Source of the DNA: an uncultured Bradyrhizobium sp.
GTDB lineage: Bacteria; Pseudomonadota; Alphaproteobacteria; Rhizobiales; Xanthobacteraceae
Reading direction: 5' to 3'
NCBI RefSeq assembly: GCF_947648125.1
Contig: NZ_CANSMR010000002.1
Span: 620,001 to 684,000, forward strand
Length of the DNA: 64,000 bases
Below the pieces are notes generated by a model. That model worked only from the letters and a program-made list of their open reading frames with translations, made no database searches and was not told the origin of the DNA. This document shows, piece by piece, positions 3,954 through 55,543 of the stretch. Position 1 is the stretch's first letter. Every line of letters starts with the position of its first letter. The translations under genes were made by a program, and so were the position numbers.

Positions 3954-5342
3954 TCACGCCGCGAGCCGCAGCTCGGTCCAATCAACGGCCTTCGCTTCCG
4001 GCTCGCCGATGATCCGCCGCAGCTCGTCGGCCCACGCCTGCAGCACCTCGCGCTTTTCGGTCAGCTCGCGATCCTCGGCATGGACGTAGTGCCGGCCGGT
4101 GACCGGCGGCAGCTTGATGCCGTCCTCTGCCGTCACGCGATGATCCAAGCAGAGCGCGATCTTCGACATCGGCTGACCGATCAGGCGCGCCCAGCTCGCC
4201 GCCGATCGGCGGAGGTCGTGCGGCGAAAACGGCTTCAGGCCGAGCAGCGCGCAGATGCCCGGCGTCTTCACCGAGCCGTCCTTCCGCTTGGTGCCGCGCA
4301 GCGCGGTCGCCATCGCTTGACGGTTCATCGGCTGATCGCTGAGCGGCGACATGAAGACGTGCTGCTGCGCATCGCTGGTCAGCGCCTCCCTGATGATCTC
4401 GACCGCCAGATCGCTCAGCGGCTGCTTGAGCACGCGCCTTTTCTTCACGCGCCGCAGCGGCACGTCAATCCGCGCACGATCGCCGTCGAGGTCAACCAGC
4501 TCGCTGCGCTGTGCGCCAAGCAGCTCGGCACTGCGCAGCATCGTGGTCAACTCAAACCGCAACGCGAGGCGAGTCCGGCGATCCCACGGCAGATCAGCGC
4601 GGTCGAGGCCCCACCACAGCGCCTTGATCTCCGCCTCGGACAGCACCCGCGTGCGCGGATGCTCGGCGTCGAGCGGCTCCAGATCGCTGCAGGGATTCGA
4701 GGTGACGTACTCGCGCCGCAGTGCCCAGCGGAACAGGCCGGAGGCCGCGCGCCGCATGTGCCTTGCATTGCTGATCGACGGGACGCCGAGCCTGCCGGCG
4801 ACGATGTCGTCCGACATCGTCTGAATGTCGCTTCTGCTGACCTCGCTCGCCAGCTTCCGGCCGAGACGGGGACTGAGGAAGCGCCGGAGGTGACTGGCGA
4901 CGTTGCTCCATGTCTCGATCCGGGGCCGCATCTCGCCGTCCGGCTTGCGGACCGGCGTCTTCATCCACTCGACCCTCTCGGCGATGACCTCGGCGACGGT
5001 TTTGCCGGCCTTGGCCTGCTGCGCCTTGCGGTCGCGGAAGGTCTCGGCGAGCGCGGCGGTGCCGAGCCCCTTGATGGCGTAGACCCGAGCGCGGGCGTCG
5101 GCGACGGTGAAGGCCTTGCCGTGGACGCCGAGCCAGCCCGAGCGCTGCTTGCCGGTCACCGGGTCGGTGAACTTCAGATAGAACGTCGCGACCCCGGCCG
5201 TGGTGACGGAGACGTAGAGGCCGGGGGTCTTGCGGTCGTAGAATTTGACCCGCTCGGTGACGCGCCGCGCGATCAATTTGTCAGTGAGGATGACACTGCC
5301 GGTGGGACGTGGGCTGGCAGCTTGTGTGGTAACTTCGGGCAT
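3954..5342 (-). CDS. Tyrosine recombinase / phage integrase with N-terminal arm-binding domain
   Basis: 462 residues from the ATG at 5342 (MPEVTTQ); a longer frame exists but its N-terminus does not resemble the family. Residues ~15-100 match the DUF4102-type arm-DNA-binding domain of P4-like integrases (YDRKTPGLYVSVT, LGVHGKAFTVADAR). A SAM-like core-binding domain follows (~110-220). The catalytic domain shows the Arg in TTMLRSAELLG, the HDLRRSAASW box, the second His in CLDHRV, and the nucleophilic Tyr in GRHYVHAED. All catalytic residues are therefore present, and the enzyme should be active in site-specific integration of the element. A terminator follows its stop. Confidence 0.9.
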   Translation of the reverse strand: MPEVTTQAASPRPTGSVILTDKLIARRVTERVKFYDRKTPGLYVSVTTAGVATFYLKFTDPVTGKQRSGWLGVHGKAFTVADARARVYAIKGLGTAALAETFRDRKAQQAKAGKTVAEVIAERVEWMKTPVRKPDGEMRPRIETWSNVASHLRRFLSPRLGRKLASEVSRSDIQTMSDDIVAGRLGVPSISNARHMRRAASGLFRWALRREYVTSNPCSDLEPLDAEHPRTRVLSEAEIKALWWGLDRADLPWDRRTRLALRFELTTMLRSAELLGAQRSELVDLDGDRARIDVPLRRVKKRRVLKQPLSDLAVEIIREALTSDAQQHVFMSPLSDQPMNRQAMATALRGTKRKDGSVKTPGICALLGLKPFSPHDLRRSAASWARLIGQPMSKIALCLDHRVTAEDGIKLPPVTGRHYVHAEDRELTEKREVLQAWADELRRIIGEPEAKAVDWTELRLAA

Positions 5343-5498
5343 GGTTTCGACTCTCCAAAGGTTGGGACCATGCCGGGACGCTTCGCTCTGGTGCCAACCG
5401 ATGGCGAAGGTCCCGGCCCTAGATTTGGCAATCCCCGCGACCCAGCCCGATACAAGCGTTACGCAAAATGGCCTGTTTTCATAGGGTTTTCGTAGCGT

Positions 5499-5515
5499 CA
5501 CGGTGAGACACCGTG
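5499..5515. promoter_or_regulatory. Short inverted repeat upstream of the integrase
   Basis: CACGGTG-AGA-CACCGTG is a perfect 7-bp inverted repeat about 155 bp upstream of the integrase start. It may be an operator for an element-encoded regulator or an arm site for the integrase. The call is by position and symmetry only. Confidence 0.35.
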
Positions 5516-14355: not shown

Positions 14356-16215
14356 ATGAAACGATCGCCTCCTCCCGTCACTGCCACCACCACGGCCTGG
14401 TCCAGCTCGAAGCCGCCGCTGCTGCGGTTTCTGCACACGTGTTACGCAGACTTCCTGCCGGAGGTTGCCGGTGCGGTGGCCGACTACATCCCCGAGCTCG
14501 GCAAGGCGGACCCTGCCCATTTTGGCATCAGCCTCGCGACGCTCGACGGCCATGTCTACGAGGTCGGCGACACCAGGGTGCCCTTCACCATCCAGTCGAT
14601 GTCGAAGCCGTTCGTATTCGCGCTGGCGCTGGACACGCTGGGCGCCGAGCGGGTGGAAAGCGTGATCGGCGTCGAGCCGTCCGGCGACCCCTTCAATTCG
14701 ATCCGGCTCAATGCCGAGAACCACCCGTTCAATGCGATGGTGAATGCCGGCGCGATCGCCTGCTCCGGCCTGCTCCATGCCGACAAGGGCGATGGCGCAT
14801 TCGACTATATCCGCCAGGCGCTCGGCCGCTTCGCCGGCCGCGAACTCGACGTCGACGAGGCGGTCTATGCCTCCGAAAGCGCCACGGGCGACCGCAACCG
14901 GGCGATCGGCTATCTGCTGCGCACCAACAGCGTGATCACCGAGAACGTGCCTGCGGTGCTCGACGTCTATTTCCGGCAATGCGCCATCCTCGTCACCGCG
15001 CGCGACAGCGCCGTGATGGCCGCGACGCTGGCCAACCGCGGCATCAATCCGCTGACCGGCGAGCAGGTGGTGACGCCCTACGCGATCGCACGCACGCTGT
15101 CGGTGATGACCTCGTCGGGCATGTACGACTACGCCGGCGAATGGATCTACCGCGTCGGCATCCCGGCCAAGAGCGGGGTCGGCGGCGGCATCCTGGCGGC
15201 GCTGCCGGCGCGGCTCGGACTCGGCAGCTACTCGCCAAAGCTCGACAAGCACGGCAACAGCGTGCGCGGCATCAAGGTGTGCGAGGCGCTGTCAGCGCAT
15301 TACGACCTGCACATGCTGAACCGCAGCGATGATGCCCGCCACAGCATCATCGCCGACTACAATATCGGCAAGAACCCGTCGCGGCGCCTGCGCCGGCCGC
15401 AGGAGCAGGAGATCCTGGCAAAGCACTTCCAGGAGGTGCGCGTGATCGAGCTCGTTGGCACGCTGTCGCTCTCCAATGTCGACTATGTCTCGCGCCGCCT
15501 CGCCGGCAGCCCGCGACCGGAGTTCGTGATCTTCGACCTCCGCCGCGTCACCGCGACGACCCGCGCCGGCGCCCGGCTGGTGGCGGAGGCCTTCCAGGAA
15601 CTGGCCGAACTCGGCGTCACCGTGATCCTGTCGGGCATCAAGCGGACCTCGCGCGAATGGAGCACGATCAGCGAGTGGACCAACCGGCTCGGCAATATCA
15701 GGGACTTCTATCTGCTCGACACCGCGATCGAATGGGCCGAGGACCAGATCGTCTACCGCTATGGCGGCTCGATCGACTTCCTCGAGACCACGGAGCTGTC
15801 CGAACAGCCGCTGCTCGCCGGATTGAGCGAGGCTGAGATCGCTGACCTCGCCTCGCTCTGCGCGGTCAGGACCTACCAGCCGAATGAAAAGATCATCGCC
15901 GCCCGCAGTGAGGCGACCTCGTTGTTCTTCCTGCGCAGCGGCGTCGTCCACGTCACCCTGCCCGACGGCATCCGGCTCGCGACGCTGACCGCCGGCATGG
16001 CGTTCGGCGAAATGGCGCTGCTGGAGCCGCGACGCTCGGCCGACGTGGTCGCGGACATGTCGGCCACCGCCTATGAAGTCGCGATCATGGATTTCGAGCG
16101 CTTCCGCGAGCAACACCCGCGCGCCGGCGAGCGGATCATGCGCAACCTCGCGCAGATCCTCGCCGAGCGGCTGATCGTGGCAAATGCGAAGGTCGATTTG
16201 CTGACGTCAGGGTAA
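14356..16215 (+). CDS. glsA: Glutaminase fused to STAS and cyclic-nucleotide-binding domains
   Basis: 619 residues, twice the length of ordinary glutaminases. Residues ~20-325 form the serine-dependent beta-lactamase-like glutaminase, with the SxxK-type motif Ser81-Met-Ser-Lys84 and conserved ENHPFNAMVNAGAI and SESATGDRNRAI. It converts glutamine to glutamate and ammonia. Residues ~345-455 match a STAS domain (VIELVGTLSLSNVD, FDLRRVTATTRAGARL). Residues ~475-600 form a cNMP-binding fold with AFGEMALLEPRRSADVVADM in the phosphate-binding position, though the spacing around the key Arg differs from CAP. The fusion suggests that activity responds to a nucleotide or to a partner through STAS. AGGAGGCG precedes the ATG. 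Confidence 0.92.
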   Translation: MKRSPPPVTATTTAWSSSKPPLLRFLHTCYADFLPEVAGAVADYIPELGKADPAHFGISLATLDGHVYEVGDTRVPFTIQSMSKPFVFALALDTLGAERVESVIGVEPSGDPFNSIRLNAENHPFNAMVNAGAIACSGLLHADKGDGAFDYIRQALGRFAGRELDVDEAVYASESATGDRNRAIGYLLRTNSVITENVPAVLDVYFRQCAILVTARDSAVMAATLANRGINPLTGEQVVTPYAIARTLSVMTSSGMYDYAGEWIYRVGIPAKSGVGGGILAALPARLGLGSYSPKLDKHGNSVRGIKVCEALSAHYDLHMLNRSDDARHSIIADYNIGKNPSRRLRRPQEQEILAKHFQEVRVIELVGTLSLSNVDYVSRRLAGSPRPEFVIFDLRRVTATTRAGARLVAEAFQELAELGVTVILSGIKRTSREWSTISEWTNRLGNIRDFYLLDTAIEWAEDQIVYRYGGSIDFLETTELSEQPLLAGLSEAEIADLASLCAVRTYQPNEKIIAARSEATSLFFLRSGVVHVTLPDGIRLATLTAGMAFGEMALLEPRRSADVVADMSATAYEVAIMDFERFREQHPRAGERIMRNLAQILAERLIVANAKVDLLTSG

Positions 16216-16416: not shown

Positions 16417-16944
16417 TCAGCTCACCACTTCCGTCACCGGCTGCATGTCGATCTCGAACGTCTCGAGAAACTTCGACGTCATGATGTAGAAGCCGACCGA
16501 GAGCTGCAGCTCGATCAGCGCGCCCGGCGTCAGCAGCGCCGCGATCGCCTTGAAGGTCGCATCCGTCGGCTTCTTCAGCTTGACGATCTCGTCGGTGAAG
16601 GTCAGCGCCGCGCGCTGCGCCTCGTTGAAGCAGGTCGCGGACTGCCAGTTCTCCAGCGCGGCGTTCTGCTCGTCGGTGACGCCGACATTTTTTCCGATGC
16701 GCTTGTGCGCGACGATCTCGTAAGGCGCTTCGCAGAGAATGCCGGTGCGCGTGATCGCGAGCTCGCGCACGATCGGGTCGAGCTCGCCCTTGTGGCGGAT
16801 CGCGCCGCCGAGCCGGCAATATTGTTCAAAGTAACTCGGCGAATGCGCCATCATGCGAAAGATGTTGGCGTTGCGGTTCTTGTCGAGGATCTCGCGGGTG
16901 CGCGGGCTTGCCTTCGCGGGATCAGAGTAGTCGATACGGGCCAT
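16417..16944 (-). CDS. Carboxymuconolactone decarboxylase family protein (AhpD-like fold)
   Basis: 175 residues, all helical. The family core lies at ~60-95: ELAITRTGILCEAPYEIVAHKRIGKNVG, with the Glu, one Cys and the His of the AhpD relay. The second Cys of true AhpD (CxxC) is missing, as in many CMD-family proteins of unknown substrate. Possible roles are decarboxylation or peroxidase support in degradation of aromatic or cyclic acids. It is the leftmost leftward gene of the acyl-CoA block but is separated from it by about 420 bp holding a small rightward ORF. The start is the ATG at 16944. Confidence 0.8.
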   Translation of the reverse strand: MARIDYSDPAKASPRTREILDKNRNANIFRMMAHSPSYFEQYCRLGGAIRHKGELDPIVRELAITRTGILCEAPYEIVAHKRIGKNVGVTDEQNAALENWQSATCFNEAQRAALTFTDEIVKLKKPTDATFKAIAALLTPGALIELQLSVGFYIMTSKFLETFEIDMQPVTEVVS

Positions 16945-17364: not shown

Positions 17365-17724
17365 TCATTTTGCCTTTGCGAAATACGGAACCAGCCGTCC
17401 CGCAAGTTGCGTGAAGCGCGCCAAAACCTTGTCGCCGATGGCGAGATCGTTGTCGCCGTGCGCCATCATGCGAAAGCCCTCGTCGGCATCCACGAGCAGG
17501 ATATTGTAAGGCACATGCGCCCGGGTCTCCGGCGTTGCGGCGCGGCAGACCAGTGACGTCGCATACACCGTCCCTGCCCCGCTCGCGCGATGCTCGGCGA
17601 GATCAGACGAGCCGCAGGCCGCACAGAAGCTGCGGCGGAAATATTGCCGCGCGGCGCAGGCGTTGCAGGTCTGATAGACGATGGCTTCCGCGCCCTTGGT
17701 CCAGTCAGCGATCGGTCCACTCAT
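17365..17724 (-). CDS. DUF35 family zinc-ribbon/OB-fold protein
   Basis: 119 residues from the ATG at 17724. The N-terminal rubredoxin-like zinc ribbon has Cys20-x2-Cys23 and Cys34-x2-Cys37, all four present. The C-terminal OB fold begins near residue 50 (GTVYATSLVCRA, VPYNILLVDADEGFRMMAH). DUF35 proteins are partners of thiolase-superfamily enzymes and bind or channel acyl-CoA; some pairs act as aldolases in side-chain cleavage. The start overlaps the stop of the upstream thiolase-like gene by 4 bp (ATGA), a classic sign of co-translation and complex formation. The partner has an early in-frame stop, which raises the question of whether this gene still has a function. Confidence 0.85.
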   Translation of the reverse strand: MSGPIADWTKGAEAIVYQTCNACAARQYFRRSFCAACGSSDLAEHRASGAGTVYATSLVCRAATPETRAHVPYNILLVDADEGFRMMAHGDNDLAIGDKVLARFTQLAGRLVPYFAKAK

Positions 17725-18857
17725 CGCACGCGCTCCAGGAACATGCTGACATGCGAGGACAGCACGCCGCCGTCGCCATGCAGCAGCGCGACCGACGCAT
17801 CCCGCACCTGGCGATTGTCGGCGCGGCCGGTCATCTGAAGATGGGTTTCGACCAGATGCGCCATCGCGCCGCCGACGCCGCAATGGCCATAGCTGAGCAG
17901 GCCACCATGGGTGTTGAGCGGCAGCTCGCCATCCTGATTGAAATGGCCGGCGCGTACCCGCGCTGCCGCCTCGCCGCGCTTGGCGAGGCCGAGGTCTTCC
18001 AGCAGCATCGCGAGCGTGATCGTGAAGCTGTCGTAGACCGCGGCGTAGCGCACGTCCGATATCGCGATGCGCGACGCCGCTTTCGCCTTCGCGATCGAAA
18101 TCTCCGCACCGAGCTCGCTCAATGCGGGCGCGGCCGTGATGTGCTGATGGGTATGCGCCTGGGCGCAGCCGCGGACGCGAACCCGCCTTTCGCCGGTCGG
18201 CTCGCGGCTGATCACGCACGCCGCGCCGCCGTCGGAGACCGGACAGCAGTCGAGCAGCTTGAGCGGCATCGCCACCGGCTTCGAGGCCATCACGTCGGCA
18301 ACCGTGATCGGCTCGTGGAATTGCGCGCCGGGATGCGTCAGCGCGTGCTTGCGCATCAACACCGCGAACTCGGCGAGGTCTTCCTGTGTGAGCCCGTATT
18401 CATGCATGTAACGCGTCGCGACCAGGCCGTAATAGGCCGGGATGGTCGGCCCCAGGGTCACCTCGTAGTCCGGATGGCCGACCTGGGCCAATGCCTGGAT
18501 CGAGGCGTCGCGGCTCTGCCCGGTCAGCCGGTTCTCTCCGCCGACCACCAGCACGTGCCTTGCGACGCCGGCATCGACGAGATGATGCGCCAGCATGGTC
18601 ATCGCGAGGCCCGTGGCGCCGCCGACCTGCACGGCGTGGGCGTAGGACGGACGAATACCAAAGTGCTCGGCGAACACGGTGGCCAACATGATGTGCGGCG
18701 AGACGGTGGAATAGCCGCAGAGGATGCCGTCGATGTCGGCGCGCTTCAGCCCGGCATCCGAGATCGCAAGCTCGGCCGCCTTGCTCATCAGGTCGAGCGA
18801 GGACAGGCCCTCATGCTTGCCTTAGGACGTGAGGACGACGCCGGTGACGAAGCACAT
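17721..18857 (-). pseudogene. Thiolase-superfamily protein (Ltp2/SCP-x-like) with in-frame TAA at codon 12
   Basis: The natural start is the ATG at 18857, 6 bases after AGAGGGG. Eleven codons later an in-frame TAA (18824-18822) stands where relatives have Phe or Tyr in the TxFGK motif; the frame then continues with GKHEG and is open to 17721. Translation could restart at the ATG at 18788, giving 355 residues without the first strand, but no ribosome site is seen there. The usual nucleophilic Cys is replaced by Gly (HAVQVGGATG, against ENACATG in the neighbour thiolase), His by Tyr in VYDSFT, and Lys-Gly-His by Tyr-Gly-His in LLSYGHCG. This pattern fits aldolase-type members that work with DUF35 proteins, and a DUF35 gene follows with a 4-bp overlap. 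Confidence 0.75.
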
Positions 18858-18875
18858 CGTTATCCCCTCTTCTCC

Positions 18876-18998
18876 GTCATACCGGGGCGACGCGAAGCGG
18901 CGAGCCCGGAATCCATAACCACGATCGTGAGTATGGATTCCCCCGATGCGCAATTGCGCATCTGAGGCCTGCGCCTGACGGCGCATCCCGGAATGACG
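18876..18998. repeat. Dispersed end-palindrome repeat ('gtcat..ggaatgac' type)
   Basis: The ends 'gtcataccggggcgacgcga' and 'cgcatcccggaatgac' are imperfect reverse complements, with inner 'ggaatccata' / 'tatggattcc' pairing around 18911-18940. It lies between two leftward genes that could otherwise be one operon. A related copy is at 42890. Confidence 0.65.
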
Positions 18999-19022
18999 AG
19001 TGGAGAAATTGGTTCAGCATCT

Positions 19023-20189
19023 TCAATACGACTTCGGAAGGCCGAGCACCTTCTCGCCGATGAAGCTGAGGATCAGCTGCGGGCTGATCGGCGCGATGCG
19101 CGGGATCAGCGATTCCCGCAAGTAGCGCTCGACGTGATATTCCTTGGCGTAGCCGAAGCCGCCATGCGTCATCACCGCCTGCTCACAGGCGTGGAAGCCG
19201 GCTTCCGCCGCGAGATACTTTGCGGAATTCGCGGCGGGGCCGCACGGCAGGTTCTGGTCGTATTGCCAGCCGGCGCGCAGCACCATCAGCCAGGCGGCCT
19301 CGAGCTCCATCCAGCACTTCGCCAGCGGATGCTGGATCGCCTGGTTCATGCCGATCGGGCGGTTGAACACGATGCGGCCCTTGGCGTATTCCGACGCCCG
19401 CTTCAGCGCGATCTGGCCGAGGCCGACCGCTTCAGCCGCAATCAGGATGCGCTCGGGATTCATGCCGTGCAGGATGTATTCGAAGCCGCGGCCTTCCTCG
19501 CCAATGCGGTCTTCGACCGGAATCTCGAAATTCTCGAAGAACAGCTCGTTGGAGTCGACGGGCTTGCGGCCCATCTTCTCGATCTCGTGCACGGTGACGC
19601 GCTTGCGGTCGAAGTCGGTGTAGAACAGGCTGAGGCCGTGGGTCGCGCTCTTCACCTCCTCCAGCGGCGTGGTGCGCGCGAGCAGCAGGATCTTGTTGGC
19701 GACCTGCGCGGTCGAGATCCACACCTTCTGGCCGTTGACGATGTATTTGTCGCCCTGGCGCACCGCGCGGGTCTTGAGCTGCGTGGTGTTGAGGCCGGTG
19801 TTGGGCTCGGTCACCGCAAAGCAGGACTTGTCACGGCCGTCGATGATCGGCGGCAGCATGCGCTGGCACTGCTCCTTGGTGCCGAACACCACCACCGGAT
19901 TGAGCCCGAACACGTTCATGTGCACGGCCGATGCGCCGGACATACCGGCGCCGGATTCGGAGATCGTGCGCATCATGATCGCGGCATCGGTAATGCCGAG
20001 CCCGGAGCCGCCATATTCCTCGGGGATGCAGATGCCGAGCCAGCCGGCATCGGCCAGTGCGCGGTGGAAGTCAGCCGGATAGCCGCCCTCCTTGTCCTTC
20101 TTCAGCCAGTAGGCCTCGTCAAAGCGCGAGCAGATCTTGGCGACGGCGTCGCGGATCGATTCCTGGTTGGCGGAGAGTGCGAAATCCAT
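19023..20189 (-). CDS. Acyl-CoA dehydrogenase
   Basis: 388 residues with the three-part ACAD fold: N-terminal helices (to ~120), a middle beta domain (CFAVTEPNTGLNTTQLKT, VNGQKVWISTAQ) that binds FAD, and a C-terminal helical domain (THGGFGYAKEYHVERYLRES). The common catalytic Glu position near the C-terminus (usually in a YEGTSE-like motif) reads RIAPISPQLI here, with no Glu. A Glu is instead present in MNPERILIAAEAVG, matching the position used by isovaleryl- and long-chain-type enzymes. It oxidises an acyl-CoA to enoyl-CoA and passes electrons to ETF. It starts 11 bp after the CoA-transferase stop, so the two are cotranscribed. Confidence 0.9.
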   Translation of the reverse strand: MDFALSANQESIRDAVAKICSRFDEAYWLKKDKEGGYPADFHRALADAGWLGICIPEEYGGSGLGITDAAIMMRTISESGAGMSGASAVHMNVFGLNPVVVFGTKEQCQRMLPPIIDGRDKSCFAVTEPNTGLNTTQLKTRAVRQGDKYIVNGQKVWISTAQVANKILLLARTTPLEEVKSATHGLSLFYTDFDRKRVTVHEIEKMGRKPVDSNELFFENFEIPVEDRIGEEGRGFEYILHGMNPERILIAAEAVGLGQIALKRASEYAKGRIVFNRPIGMNQAIQHPLAKCWMELEAAWLMVLRAGWQYDQNLPCGPAANSAKYLAAEAGFHACEQAVMTHGGFGYAKEYHVERYLRESLIPRIAPISPQLILSFIGEKVLGLPKSY

Positions 20190-20200
20190 CTGTCGTGCTC

Positions 20201-21400
20201 CTATGCCTTCACCACTTTGGCCGCGCCGTCGCGCACCATCGCCGCGATCTCGTCAGCGGAGAAACCGGCCTCGCGCAAAATCTCCGCGCTGTGCTCGCCG
20301 AGCCTGGGCGCTAGCCGGCTTGGCTCGACCTTGGTCTCCGACCAGCGCGCCGACGGCGTCATGCTGCGGATACGGCCCTCGGTCGGATGATCGATCACGG
20401 GGAAGACGCCGGTCGCCACCATATGCGGGTCCTCCAGCAGACTCTCGAGATCGTGCATCGGCATCACGGGCACGTCGGCCTTCTCGAGGATCTCGTTCCA
20501 CTCGGCGGTGGTCTTGGTCTGCAGGATGCGCGCGAGCTCGGCGTAGACGACATCGATATTGGTCGCCCGGCCGGCGAAGGTCGCGAATTTCGGATCGCTG
20601 CGCAGATCGTCGCGGCCGGTCGCCTTGAAGAAATTCTCCCACTGCTTGTCGTTGTAGACGATCACGCAGATATAGCCGTCCAGCGTCTTGTACGGCCGCC
20701 GATCCGGCGACAGATGCCGCGCGTAGCCGCCTTTGTCGAGCGGTGGATCGTAGGTCAGGCCGCCCATATGATCGCCCATGACGAAGCCGGCCATGGTCTC
20801 GAACATCGGAATGTCGACACGCTGGCCCTGCCCGGTGCGGTCGCGATGCACGAGGCTCGCGCAGATCGCGCCGACCGCGGTGAGGCCGACGATGCGATCG
20901 ACCAGCGCGTTCGGCACGTAGCGTGGCACGCCGTCCGAGGTCTGTGCCATCAGCGCCGGTAGCGCGGTGGCGCCCTGGATCAGGTCATCATAGGCGGGCT
21001 TGGCGGCATACGGGCCCTCCTGGCCGAAGCCGAACACGCCGGCATAAATCAGCCGCGGATTGACCTTGGCGACGACGTCGTAGCCGAGTTGCAGGCGCGC
21101 CATCGCCTGCGGGCGCACATTATAGACCAGCACATCGGCCTGCGCGATCAGGCGCAGCACGGCTTCGCGTCCCGCCGGCTTCTTCAGATCAAGGCAGACC
21201 GAGCGCTTGCTGCGGTTGGTGTTGAGGAACACCGGCCCCATGCCGGGATGCCGGGTCGGACCGATCTGCCGTGTCACGTCGCCGTCAGGCGATTCCACCT
21301 TGATAACGTCGGCGCCGTAGTCGCCGAGCATCTGGGTGGCATAGGGCCCCATCAGCACGGTCGTCATGTCGACGACCTTGATACCCTGCAATGGTCCCAT
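20201..21400 (-). CDS. Class III CoA-transferase (CaiB/BaiF family)
   Basis: 399 residues. Family hallmarks are the N-terminal GIKVVDMTTVLMGPYATQMLGDYGADVIKVE, the NRSKRSVCLDLKKP segment, and the catalytic Asp in PAYDDLIQG (about residue 168), which forms the aspartyl-CoA intermediate. The C-terminal part has DLESLLEDPHMVATGVF, also typical. It moves CoA between carboxylic acids in the cytoplasm. It lies directly upstream of the acyl-CoA dehydrogenase and in the same block as a CoA ligase and a thiolase, so it probably activates or recycles an intermediate of the same acid degradation pathway. Substrate unknown. Confidence 0.9.
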   Translation of the reverse strand: MGPLQGIKVVDMTTVLMGPYATQMLGDYGADVIKVESPDGDVTRQIGPTRHPGMGPVFLNTNRSKRSVCLDLKKPAGREAVLRLIAQADVLVYNVRPQAMARLQLGYDVVAKVNPRLIYAGVFGFGQEGPYAAKPAYDDLIQGATALPALMAQTSDGVPRYVPNALVDRIVGLTAVGAICASLVHRDRTGQGQRVDIPMFETMAGFVMGDHMGGLTYDPPLDKGGYARHLSPDRRPYKTLDGYICVIVYNDKQWENFFKATGRDDLRSDPKFATFAGRATNIDVVYAELARILQTKTTAEWNEILEKADVPVMPMHDLESLLEDPHMVATGVFPVIDHPTEGRIRSMTPSARWSETKVEPSRLAPRLGEHSAEILREAGFSADEIAAMVRDGAAKVVKA

Positions 21401-23570: not shown

Positions 23571-24743
23571 CTACTTCGCCGGCTCGAGGATCGAGACGTA
23601 GTTGGCGACCGCAGCGCCGCCCATGTTGAAGATGCCGCCGATCTGCGGGTTCTTGAGCTGCATGCCCTCGGGCGCCTGCCCGGCGAGCTGCATCGCGCTC
23701 ATCACATGCATGGAGACGCCGGTGGCGCCGATCGGATGGCCCTTGGCCTTGAGGCCGCCGGACGGATTGACCGGCAGCTTGCCGTCCTTCTGGGTCCAGC
23801 CTTCCATGATCGCGCGCGCGCCCTGCCCCTTCGGCGTCAGGCCCATCGCTTCATATTCGATCAGCTCGGCGACCGTGAAGCAGTCATGGGTCTCGACAAA
23901 GGACAGATCGGAGAGCTGCAGACCGGCCTTCTGCAGCGCGCGCTGCCAGGCGGTGGTGCAGCCTTCGAACTGCAGGATGTCGCGCTTCGACATCGGCAGG
24001 AAATCCTGCGCATGGGCGGTGGCGCGGATGTTCACCGCCTTGCCCATGGTCTTGGCGGTCTCGGCATCGGTCAACACCAACGCGGCGGCACCGTCCGAGA
24101 CCAGCGAGCAATCGGTGCGCTTCAAGGGACCGGCGACGAACGGGTTCTTTTCGCTCTCGGCGCGGCAGAACTCGAAGCCGAAGTCCTTGCGCATCTGCGC
24201 ATAGGGGTTGGCGACGCCGTTCTTGTGGTTCTTGGCGGCGATCATCGCCAGCGCATCCGACTGGTCGCCGTATTTCTGGAAATAGGCCTGCGCGATCTTG
24301 CCGAACACGCCGGCGAAGCCGCCGACCGTGTCGCCGTCCTCAGGCAGATACGACGCCTTCAGCAGGTTTTTGCCGATCTCCGGACCCGGCGTCCGCGTCA
24401 TCTGCTCGACGCCGACGACCAGCACGATCTTCGCAGCACCCGCCTCGATGGCGCGAATGCCCTGGTGCACCGCGGCCGATCCGGTGGCGCAGGCGTTCTC
24501 GACGCGGGTGGTCGGCTTGAAGCGCAGCGCCGGATTGGCCTGCAGCACCAGTGACGCCGTAAAATCCTGCGGCGAGAAGCCGGCGTTGAAATGGCCGAGC
24601 ATGATCTCGTCGACATCGGACGCGGCAATGCCGGCATCGGCGAGCGCCTCGTTGGCGACCTTGACGACAAGGCTTTCGACGGTCTCTGCGTCAAATTTTC
24701 CGAATGGCGTGTGCGCCCAACCCACAATGCTGGCTGCTGTCAT
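23571..24743 (-). CDS. Thiolase family protein (SCP-x-type acetyl-CoA acyltransferase)
   Basis: 390 residues from the ATG at 24743. It begins IVGWAHTPFGKF, the usual N-terminal strand. The nucleophile is the Cys in TRVENACATGSAAVHQG (near residue 89), the acid/base His is in VETHDCFTVAELIEYE, and the last motif is NPSGGLKAKGHPIGATG. All catalytic residues are present, unlike the relative at 17721. It should thiolyse a 3-oxoacyl-CoA, finishing a beta-oxidation-like round. It is the first gene of the leftward acyl-CoA block, preceded by a composite repeat that separates it from the sugar-acid operon. Confidence 0.88.
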   Translation of the reverse strand: MTAASIVGWAHTPFGKFDAETVESLVVKVANEALADAGIAASDVDEIMLGHFNAGFSPQDFTASLVLQANPALRFKPTTRVENACATGSAAVHQGIRAIEAGAAKIVLVVGVEQMTRTPGPEIGKNLLKASYLPEDGDTVGGFAGVFGKIAQAYFQKYGDQSDALAMIAAKNHKNGVANPYAQMRKDFGFEFCRAESEKNPFVAGPLKRTDCSLVSDGAAALVLTDAETAKTMGKAVNIRATAHAQDFLPMSKRDILQFEGCTTAWQRALQKAGLQLSDLSFVETHDCFTVAELIEYEAMGLTPKGQGARAIMEGWTQKDGKLPVNPSGGLKAKGHPIGATGVSMHVMSAMQLAGQAPEGMQLKNPQIGGIFNMGGAAVANYVSILEPAK

Positions 24744-24792
24744 GGTCGTATCTCCCTGTTCCCGTTCGGGAGTTATGTAGCGTATCTCGAGA

Positions 24793-55469: not shown

Positions 55470-55543
55470 TGGGGAATGGTGTAACGGTAGCACAACAGAC
55501 TCTGACTCTGTTTGTCTTGGTTCGAATCCAGGTTCCCCAGCCA
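55470..55543 (+). tRNA. tRNA-Gln (anticodon CTG)
   Basis: A complete cloverleaf can be drawn. The acceptor arms are TGGGGAA and TTCCCCA, followed by G and an encoded CCA. The D arm is GGTG...GCAC-like with the TAACGGTA loop. The anticodon stem is ACAGA/TCTGT with loop CTCTGAC, so the anticodon is CTG, which reads CAG. The T arm is CTTGG-TTCGAAT-CCAGG. 74 nt in total. It is a possible integration target for islands, but none is seen attached. Confidence 0.95.

Follow-up and report, generated by a model that had tools for sequence, protein, structure and literature searches.

A Cys-less thiolase homologue of Bradyrhizobium with a DUF35 partner and an early stop that may be bypassed by restart

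Introduction

Steroid pathways have hydratase-aldolase modules, among them Shy-Sal and ChsH1-ChsH2-Ltp2 (PMC11321319, in the part of that paper available). In Sal the catalytic residues are Tyr302 and Cys304, which belong to a YDCY motif, and Gln352 lies further on; the C304S variant is inactive. The catalytic residues of Ltp2 are Tyr294 and Tyr344, and its motif is YDHF (for both enzymes, the available text of PMC12329534). The DUF35 protein is apparently unimportant to Ltp2 or hydratase activity, as far as the accessible sections of PMC11321319 go. On that evidence a DUF35 partner marks the family rather than the chemistry. The pathway of another relative, the benzoylsuccinyl-CoA thiolase BbsAB, includes a CoA transferase and a dehydrogenase.

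The locus considered here lies in the window, by which is meant the whole stretch of 64,000 nucleotides that was analysed, from an uncultured Bradyrhizobium sp. It contains a Cys-less thiolase-superfamily gene, ThlX, coupled to a gene for a DUF35 protein and broken by a stop at codon 12. The reading tentatively preferred below is that the two form a Cys-less lyase pair, most likely a retro-aldolase, and that the early stop would be bypassed by restart at position 18788, likely via a relay of small overlapping frames.

The Locus and Its Surroundings

The minus strand from 21400 to 17365 carries a series of four genes. These are a family III (CaiB/BaiF-type) CoA transferase (20201..21400), an acyl-CoA dehydrogenase (19023..20189), ThlX (17721..18857, 378 codons with one internal TAA by direct reading) and a DUF35 protein of 119 residues (17365..17724). 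The last is intact, a zinc ribbon (CxxC...CxxC) followed by an OB fold; it matches the Pfam families OB_ChsH2_C and zf-ChsH2 above the cut-off and retains the four zinc-ribbon Cys in alignment A2. By Pfam, then, the neighbour of ThlX is a zinc-ribbon/OB-fold protein of the ChsH2-C type. Within this series, no hydratase was found next to the pair.

The preliminary description gave the layout of the coding sequence correctly, as direct reading confirms. ThlX starts with ATG at 18857-18855, 6 nt downstream of a Shine-Dalgarno-like AGAGGGG (18864..18870, minus strand), and meets TAA (18822..18824, minus strand) as its codon 12. The frame is then open up to a TGA at 17721, which overlaps the DUF35 ATG at 17724 as ATGA. 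The next in-frame ATG, at 18788, is codon 24. A promoter-like or terminator-like site was looked for within 18700-19100 and none was found.

The gap between the dehydrogenase and ThlX (18858-19022, minus strand) is a multi-copy intergenic repeat that contains two back-to-back palindromes and has 43 matches in its own genome, itself counted. Of the 41 relatives that have both genes, 13 show a gap of 1-27 nt and 28 one of 86-267 nt, and from these two size classes it seems that elements come and go there. The pair is followed by a gene of the carboxymuconolactone-decarboxylase (CMD) family (16417-16944). Farther off are a glutaminase fused with a STAS domain and a cyclic-nucleotide-binding domain (14356-16215) and, toward the left end of the window, a phage-type integrase (3954-5501) and a PIN-domain protein (1487-2530); a mobile island may have its edge at this end. 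A single tRNA gene turned up in the window, at 55470.

Distribution of the Pair

Of 265 genomes of the genus, 239 have a ThlX orthologue (E <= 1e-150). The other 26 lack a match at this threshold, so the gene can be absent. At E <= 1e-85 a match is found in 13 of 385 genomes sampled from the class, among them the window's own and another of its genus, and at E <= 1e-60 in 36 of 299 sampled from the phylum. The 80 best named orthologues all come from Bradyrhizobium or close kin, and the window's genome is classed in one genus with those that carry the closest orthologues. In every one of these 80 loci a DUF35 gene lies downstream on the same strand, with a 4-nt overlap in 70, and the CoA transferase is found upstream in 77; in 41 the immediate upstream neighbour, on the same strand, is the acyl-CoA dehydrogenase, and these neighbourhood counts include some loci shortened by contig ends. 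A CMD homologue more than 60% identical occurs on the same strand, anywhere in the locus, in 72 of the 80.

The neighbourhoods of distant relatives point to no single pathway, and some of their pairs are apparently isolated. One distant pair adjoins an acyl-CoA synthetase of the ADP-forming type (locus L160), and others adjoin genes identified by eye alone. The pair is ordinary for Bradyrhizobium and is a member of a large Cys-less, DUF35-partnered family.

The same genome holds several more members. A search for DUF35 gave 10 matches, nine of them above the cut-off, and seven further DUF35-linked thiolase homologues were identified, the nearest 52% identical to ThlX. Their motifs are YDSF in three, YDAF in three and YDDY in one; the last, on contig C33, has Gln at the place of ThlX His325 (as Sal does) and no counterpart of His360. 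Three of the seven (contigs C9, C14 and C31) have a Cys one residue after the nucleophile place. The 52% identical homologue is a Cys-less protein with YDSF, located at about 84-90 kb of contig C1 (locus L163) together with two acyl-CoA dehydrogenases (one on the opposite strand), an enoyl-CoA hydratase, a DUF35 gene, a MaoC gene and transporter-like neighbours identified by eye. By analogy, this group resembles the layout of a steroid side-chain hydratase-aldolase cluster. The six others, with Gly for the nucleophile, are spread over contigs C1, C9, C14, C4, C31 and C33 (L171-L176).

Family Assignment and Active Site

ThlX matches Pfam Thiolase_N and Thiolase_C_1 above the cut-off and has solved thiolases among its relatives, which places it in the thiolase family by sequence. 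The nucleophilic Cys is missing, as had been claimed: where a thiolase has xCAxG, ThlX has VGGATG. The alignments, with the Cys thiolase at 23571-24746 as control, put Gly80 of the Gly79-Gly80 pair (18618..18623, minus strand) at the place of the nucleophile. Gly stands there also in the aligned homologues and in the seven DUF35-linked paralogues of the same genome.

Three other positions define the site. Tyr275, which with Asp276 and Ser277 (18027..18035, minus strand) belongs to the YDSF motif, takes the place of the His in thiolase HDxF. His325 (17883..17885, minus strand) is at the GHP place and aligns with Tyr344 of TcLtp2 and Gln352 of CtSal. His360 of HGDGG (17778..17780, minus strand) corresponds to Ser in CtSal (SGTGG). 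Tyr275, Asp276, Phe278, His325 and His360 are invariant in the 25 rows of alignment A1, a set that leaves out ThlX of the window and the C33 paralogue; some homologue rows bear N-terminal extensions from the picking of open reading frames, with the motif columns unchanged. Two distant homologues have YDCF. The preliminary description had spoken of Tyr at two active-site positions. The first is indeed Tyr275, but where Ltp2 has its second Tyr, Tyr344, ThlX has His325. Two further Tyr may be mentioned: Tyr323 interchanges with Phe among ThlX homologues, and Tyr143 aligns with Tyr165 of Sal, reported as non-catalytic in the available text of PMC12329534.

What the intact pair does is suggested by its relatives and neighbours. 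The absence of the Cys, a Tyr placed as in Ltp2 and Sal, a DUF35 gene overlapping by 4 nt and the acyl-CoA genes around it argue for an aldolase-type role, and our best guess is that ThlX-DUF35 would be a retro-aldolase-type lyase, likely acting on a 3-hydroxyacyl-CoA. The aldolase idea put forward earlier keeps this much of its basis, although the active site of Ltp2 itself is absent; the more particular proposal of side-chain removal from a given substrate finds no support in the locus. The intact family might instead be some other acyl-CoA enzyme (a decarboxylase, a Claisen-type enzyme or a hydrolytic C-C lyase) or a binding protein. This is a substantial possibility, though one we doubt: the active site is unlike those of both characterised aldolases, the best structure match (PDB 4u4e) shares YDSF and is named just 'Thiolase', and the pair has no hydratase at its side, but the base-position Tyr and the DUF35 partner are common to both characterised aldolases, and Tyr275, His325 and His360 do not vary in alignment A1. 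Among the papers searched, none mentions both YDSF and thiolase, and a search for retro-aldol, acyl-CoA and thiolase-superfamily work connected with Bradyrhizobium led only to steroid or bile-acid papers.

A Stop Private to One Genome

Codon 12 is Tyr or Phe in all 80 named orthologues. When identical rows are merged, 105 distinct sequences remain including that of the window (locus L028, intact but with a start missed by the script, and six rows of other length were left out). Among the 104 others, codon 12 is Tyr in 67, Phe in 37 and a stop in none, which agrees with what had been said of relatives at this codon. Among the matches listed in the genus search, the open frame is at least 378 residues everywhere except in the window's own genome, where it is 366. 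Likewise, ThlX of the window is the sole match with an internal stop among those listed for the phylum sample. The stop is real in the sequence as given and, among the genomes searched, private to this one. Trees put ThlX of the window in a weakly resolved group, and no single sister was chosen for comparison.

Selection on the Gene and Its Start

The ratio of nonsynonymous to synonymous changes (N/S), summed over six near relatives, differs sharply between the two parts of ThlX. Codons 24-378 give 63/362 = 0.17, inside the range of the relatives (0.11-0.20), and codons 1-23 give 20/6 = 3.33 versus 0.29-1.20. The acyl-CoA dehydrogenase (0.10 versus 0.06-0.15), the CoA transferase (0.07 versus 0.07-0.13) and the CMD gene (0.25 versus 0.19-0.28) behave as in the relatives. 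The DUF35 gene, at 0.46 versus 0.25-0.43, is the highest among the seven, and selection on the pair may have relaxed to some degree.

Residues unique to the window tell a similar story. In an alignment of 27 rows ThlX has four of them, at codons 2, 8, 12 (the stop) and 263, and three of the four fall within codons 1-12, out of 378 in all (p 1e-4). If the stop is set aside, since it was the basis on which the finding was selected, two of three do so (p 0.002). The 26 other rows jointly have 4 of 95 unique residues in codons 1-12. Of the 104 other sequences, 103 have Ser at codon 2 and 103 have Gly at codon 8. Few unique residues occur in the genes nearby: none in the CoA transferase (17 rows) or the dehydrogenase (26 rows), one in the CMD gene (25 rows) and two in the DUF35 gene (23 rows).

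Codons 1-12 look released from selection and the rest of ThlX does not. A long-dead pseudogene is rejected, since codons 24-378 are at normal constraint. Poor sequence quality in general is unlikely, given the few odd residues in the neighbour genes. The preliminary description had listed mutation, sequencing error, read-through and restart as origins or outcomes of the stop; all four are kept here, and the contrast between a constrained body and changed codons 1-12 makes restart, or a local error, more likely than a gene long dead.

A local error of sequence or assembly would mean that the gene is normal and that codons 2, 8 and 12 each show a false base. Three odd bases within 33 nt, next to a multi-copy repeat, in a draft assembly of 71 contigs and at positions well conserved in relatives, would be explained in this way. 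All three are substitutions, however, with no indel, the locus is inside a contig of 718,987 bases about 80 kb from the nearer end, and the neighbour genes have few odd residues, and we consider an error somewhat unlikely. If it is one, ThlX is an ordinary gene of the genus.

Relaxation over the whole frame, as expected of a pseudogene, was not found, but a very young null would give the same outcome. The stop may thus mark a recent and real loss, a young nonsense mutation in a gene that is dead or nearly so and in which decay has not yet begun; constraint on the body equal to that in relatives is predicted here too. Such a loss could be borne in a genome with seven other DUF35-linked homologues, it would fit the 26 genus genomes in which no match reached the threshold, and it sits well with the high N/S of the DUF35 gene. 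It would nevertheless require that the two other private residues arose under normal constraint, or else soon after the death of the gene with little change elsewhere, and the chance of such clustering is about 1% by a rough hand estimate. Recent loss is for these reasons held to be unlikely.

Read-through of the TAA to a full-length protein is very improbable. The frame after the stop is open and constrained, as read-through predicts, but codons 1-12 would then stay under selection, contrary to their unique residues and N/S, and the RNA of the region shows no unusual folding (z 0.78).

Possible Restart and a Proposed Overlap Relay

Restart, the preferred reading, would proceed as follows. Translation from the normal start at 18857 would end at codon 12, and ribosomes would restart at ATG 18788 to make an N-terminally shortened protein and then the DUF35 protein. 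It is this restart that is proposed as the cause of the release of codons 1-12 and not of the rest. The possible product has 355 residues (17721..18788, minus strand) and would be without residues 1-23, the expected first strand. Its frame still matches Thiolase_N (40.7 bits; 49.1 for the full frame) and Thiolase_C_1, and the ATG at codon 24 is found in all 105 distinct sequences. No Shine-Dalgarno site was found before ATG 18788. Direct reinitiation from the TAA to ATG 18788 would be weak, the gap being 33 nt. Overlaps of -4 and -1 nt support reinitiation and long gaps do not; for example, a 38-nt gap left two E. coli gene pairs with 80-90% less of it and a third with none (PMC10666635, in the part available).

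The sequence contains a chain of overlaps that could carry ribosomes past the stop. An out-of-frame frame of 14 codons (18811..18855, minus strand) begins at a GTG overlapping the normal start. It reads past the TAA and closes with a TGA that has a 4-nt overlap with an ATG further on. From that ATG an out-of-frame frame of eight codons (18788..18814, minus strand, ATG...TGA) runs to a stop sharing one base with ATG 18788. Ribosomes would likely move from GTG 18855, served by the shared Shine-Dalgarno site, to ATG 18814 and on to ATG 18788. The odd base of codon 2 is what creates the GTG, two bases inside the normal start; that of codon 8 has no part in the relay.

The window has this chain, and none of the 80 named relatives does (with the relatives' own starts excluded from the test). 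Such a chain also arises in 759 of 20,000 base-shuffled 5' regions, and 36 of 1440 single changes at nucleotides 4-9 of the relatives would open one. As the relay was found after looking, at a chance rate near 4%, it is treated as a lead. The eight-codon frame occurs in 29 of the 80 named orthologues, and the last junction is therefore old. A fuller version, in which the nonsense mutation was bypassed rather than reverted, with a second base change opening the GTG frame, overlaps of -4 and -1 nt linking the steps and the shortened aldolase remaining under selection, is quite unlikely to hold in every part.

Against restart stands Gly6, which lies in the lost first strand and is invariant in alignment A1; a short protein without the first strand of the N-terminal sheet may fail to fold. 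The N-terminal sheet of Sal has the order 1, -5, 4, 2, 3 (PMC12329534, available text). With such an order the first strand would be an edge strand, whose loss is less grave than that of a central one. The order in Sal agrees with that of the thiolase fold class. A strain-private stop, if real, offers a natural test of nonsense rescue through overlap-coupled reinitiation, and a test of whether the thiolase fold can spare its first strand.

Comparison with Known Systems

The best profile match of ThlX is PDB 4u4e, named 'Thiolase' (469.7 bits), which we take to come from Sphaerobacter. It has the same Gly-Gly in place of Cys, the same YDSF, the same His after SYx and HGxGG.

BbsAB (PDB 7pxp) resembles the window pair in joining a thiolase-fold subunit to one of DUF35 type. 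Unlike ThlX it is a named thiolase, and ThlX scores 121.4 bits where the NCBIfam cut-off is 750.

Ltp2 with ChsH2-DUF35 (PDB 6OK1) shares with the pair the Cys-less thiolase fold, a base of the Tyr294 type and the DUF35 partner, as described in the papers on Sal and Shy. Tyr275 answers to Tyr294, but ThlX has YDSF with Ser277 in contrast to YDHF, and His325 in contrast to Tyr344; the profile match is 276 bits versus 470 for 4u4e.

Sal of Comamonas (PDB 9MYR) with Shy-DUF35 is alike in the Gly at the nucleophile place, the Tyr base and the DUF35 partner. The Tyr of Sal Tyr302 is there in ThlX, but the essential Cys304 of YDCY is Ser277 of YDSF. Since the C304S variant of Sal is dead, Ser277 would be unable simply to fill the role of that Cys. 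Gln352 of Sal contrasts with His325, and a Ser with His360. The DUF35 partner of Sal is fused to a MaoC hydratase and has a Cys3His finger, and that of the window is separate and has four Cys.

Sequence comparison files the pair, then, as a DUF35-partnered, Cys-less protein of the thiolase superfamily, and as neither an Ltp2 nor a Sal. Among active sites of the Ltp2/Sal kind, YDSF/His325/His360 is, as far as found, an uncharacterised variant. It fits the mechanism of neither characterised aldolase, and this makes it a clear target for assay.
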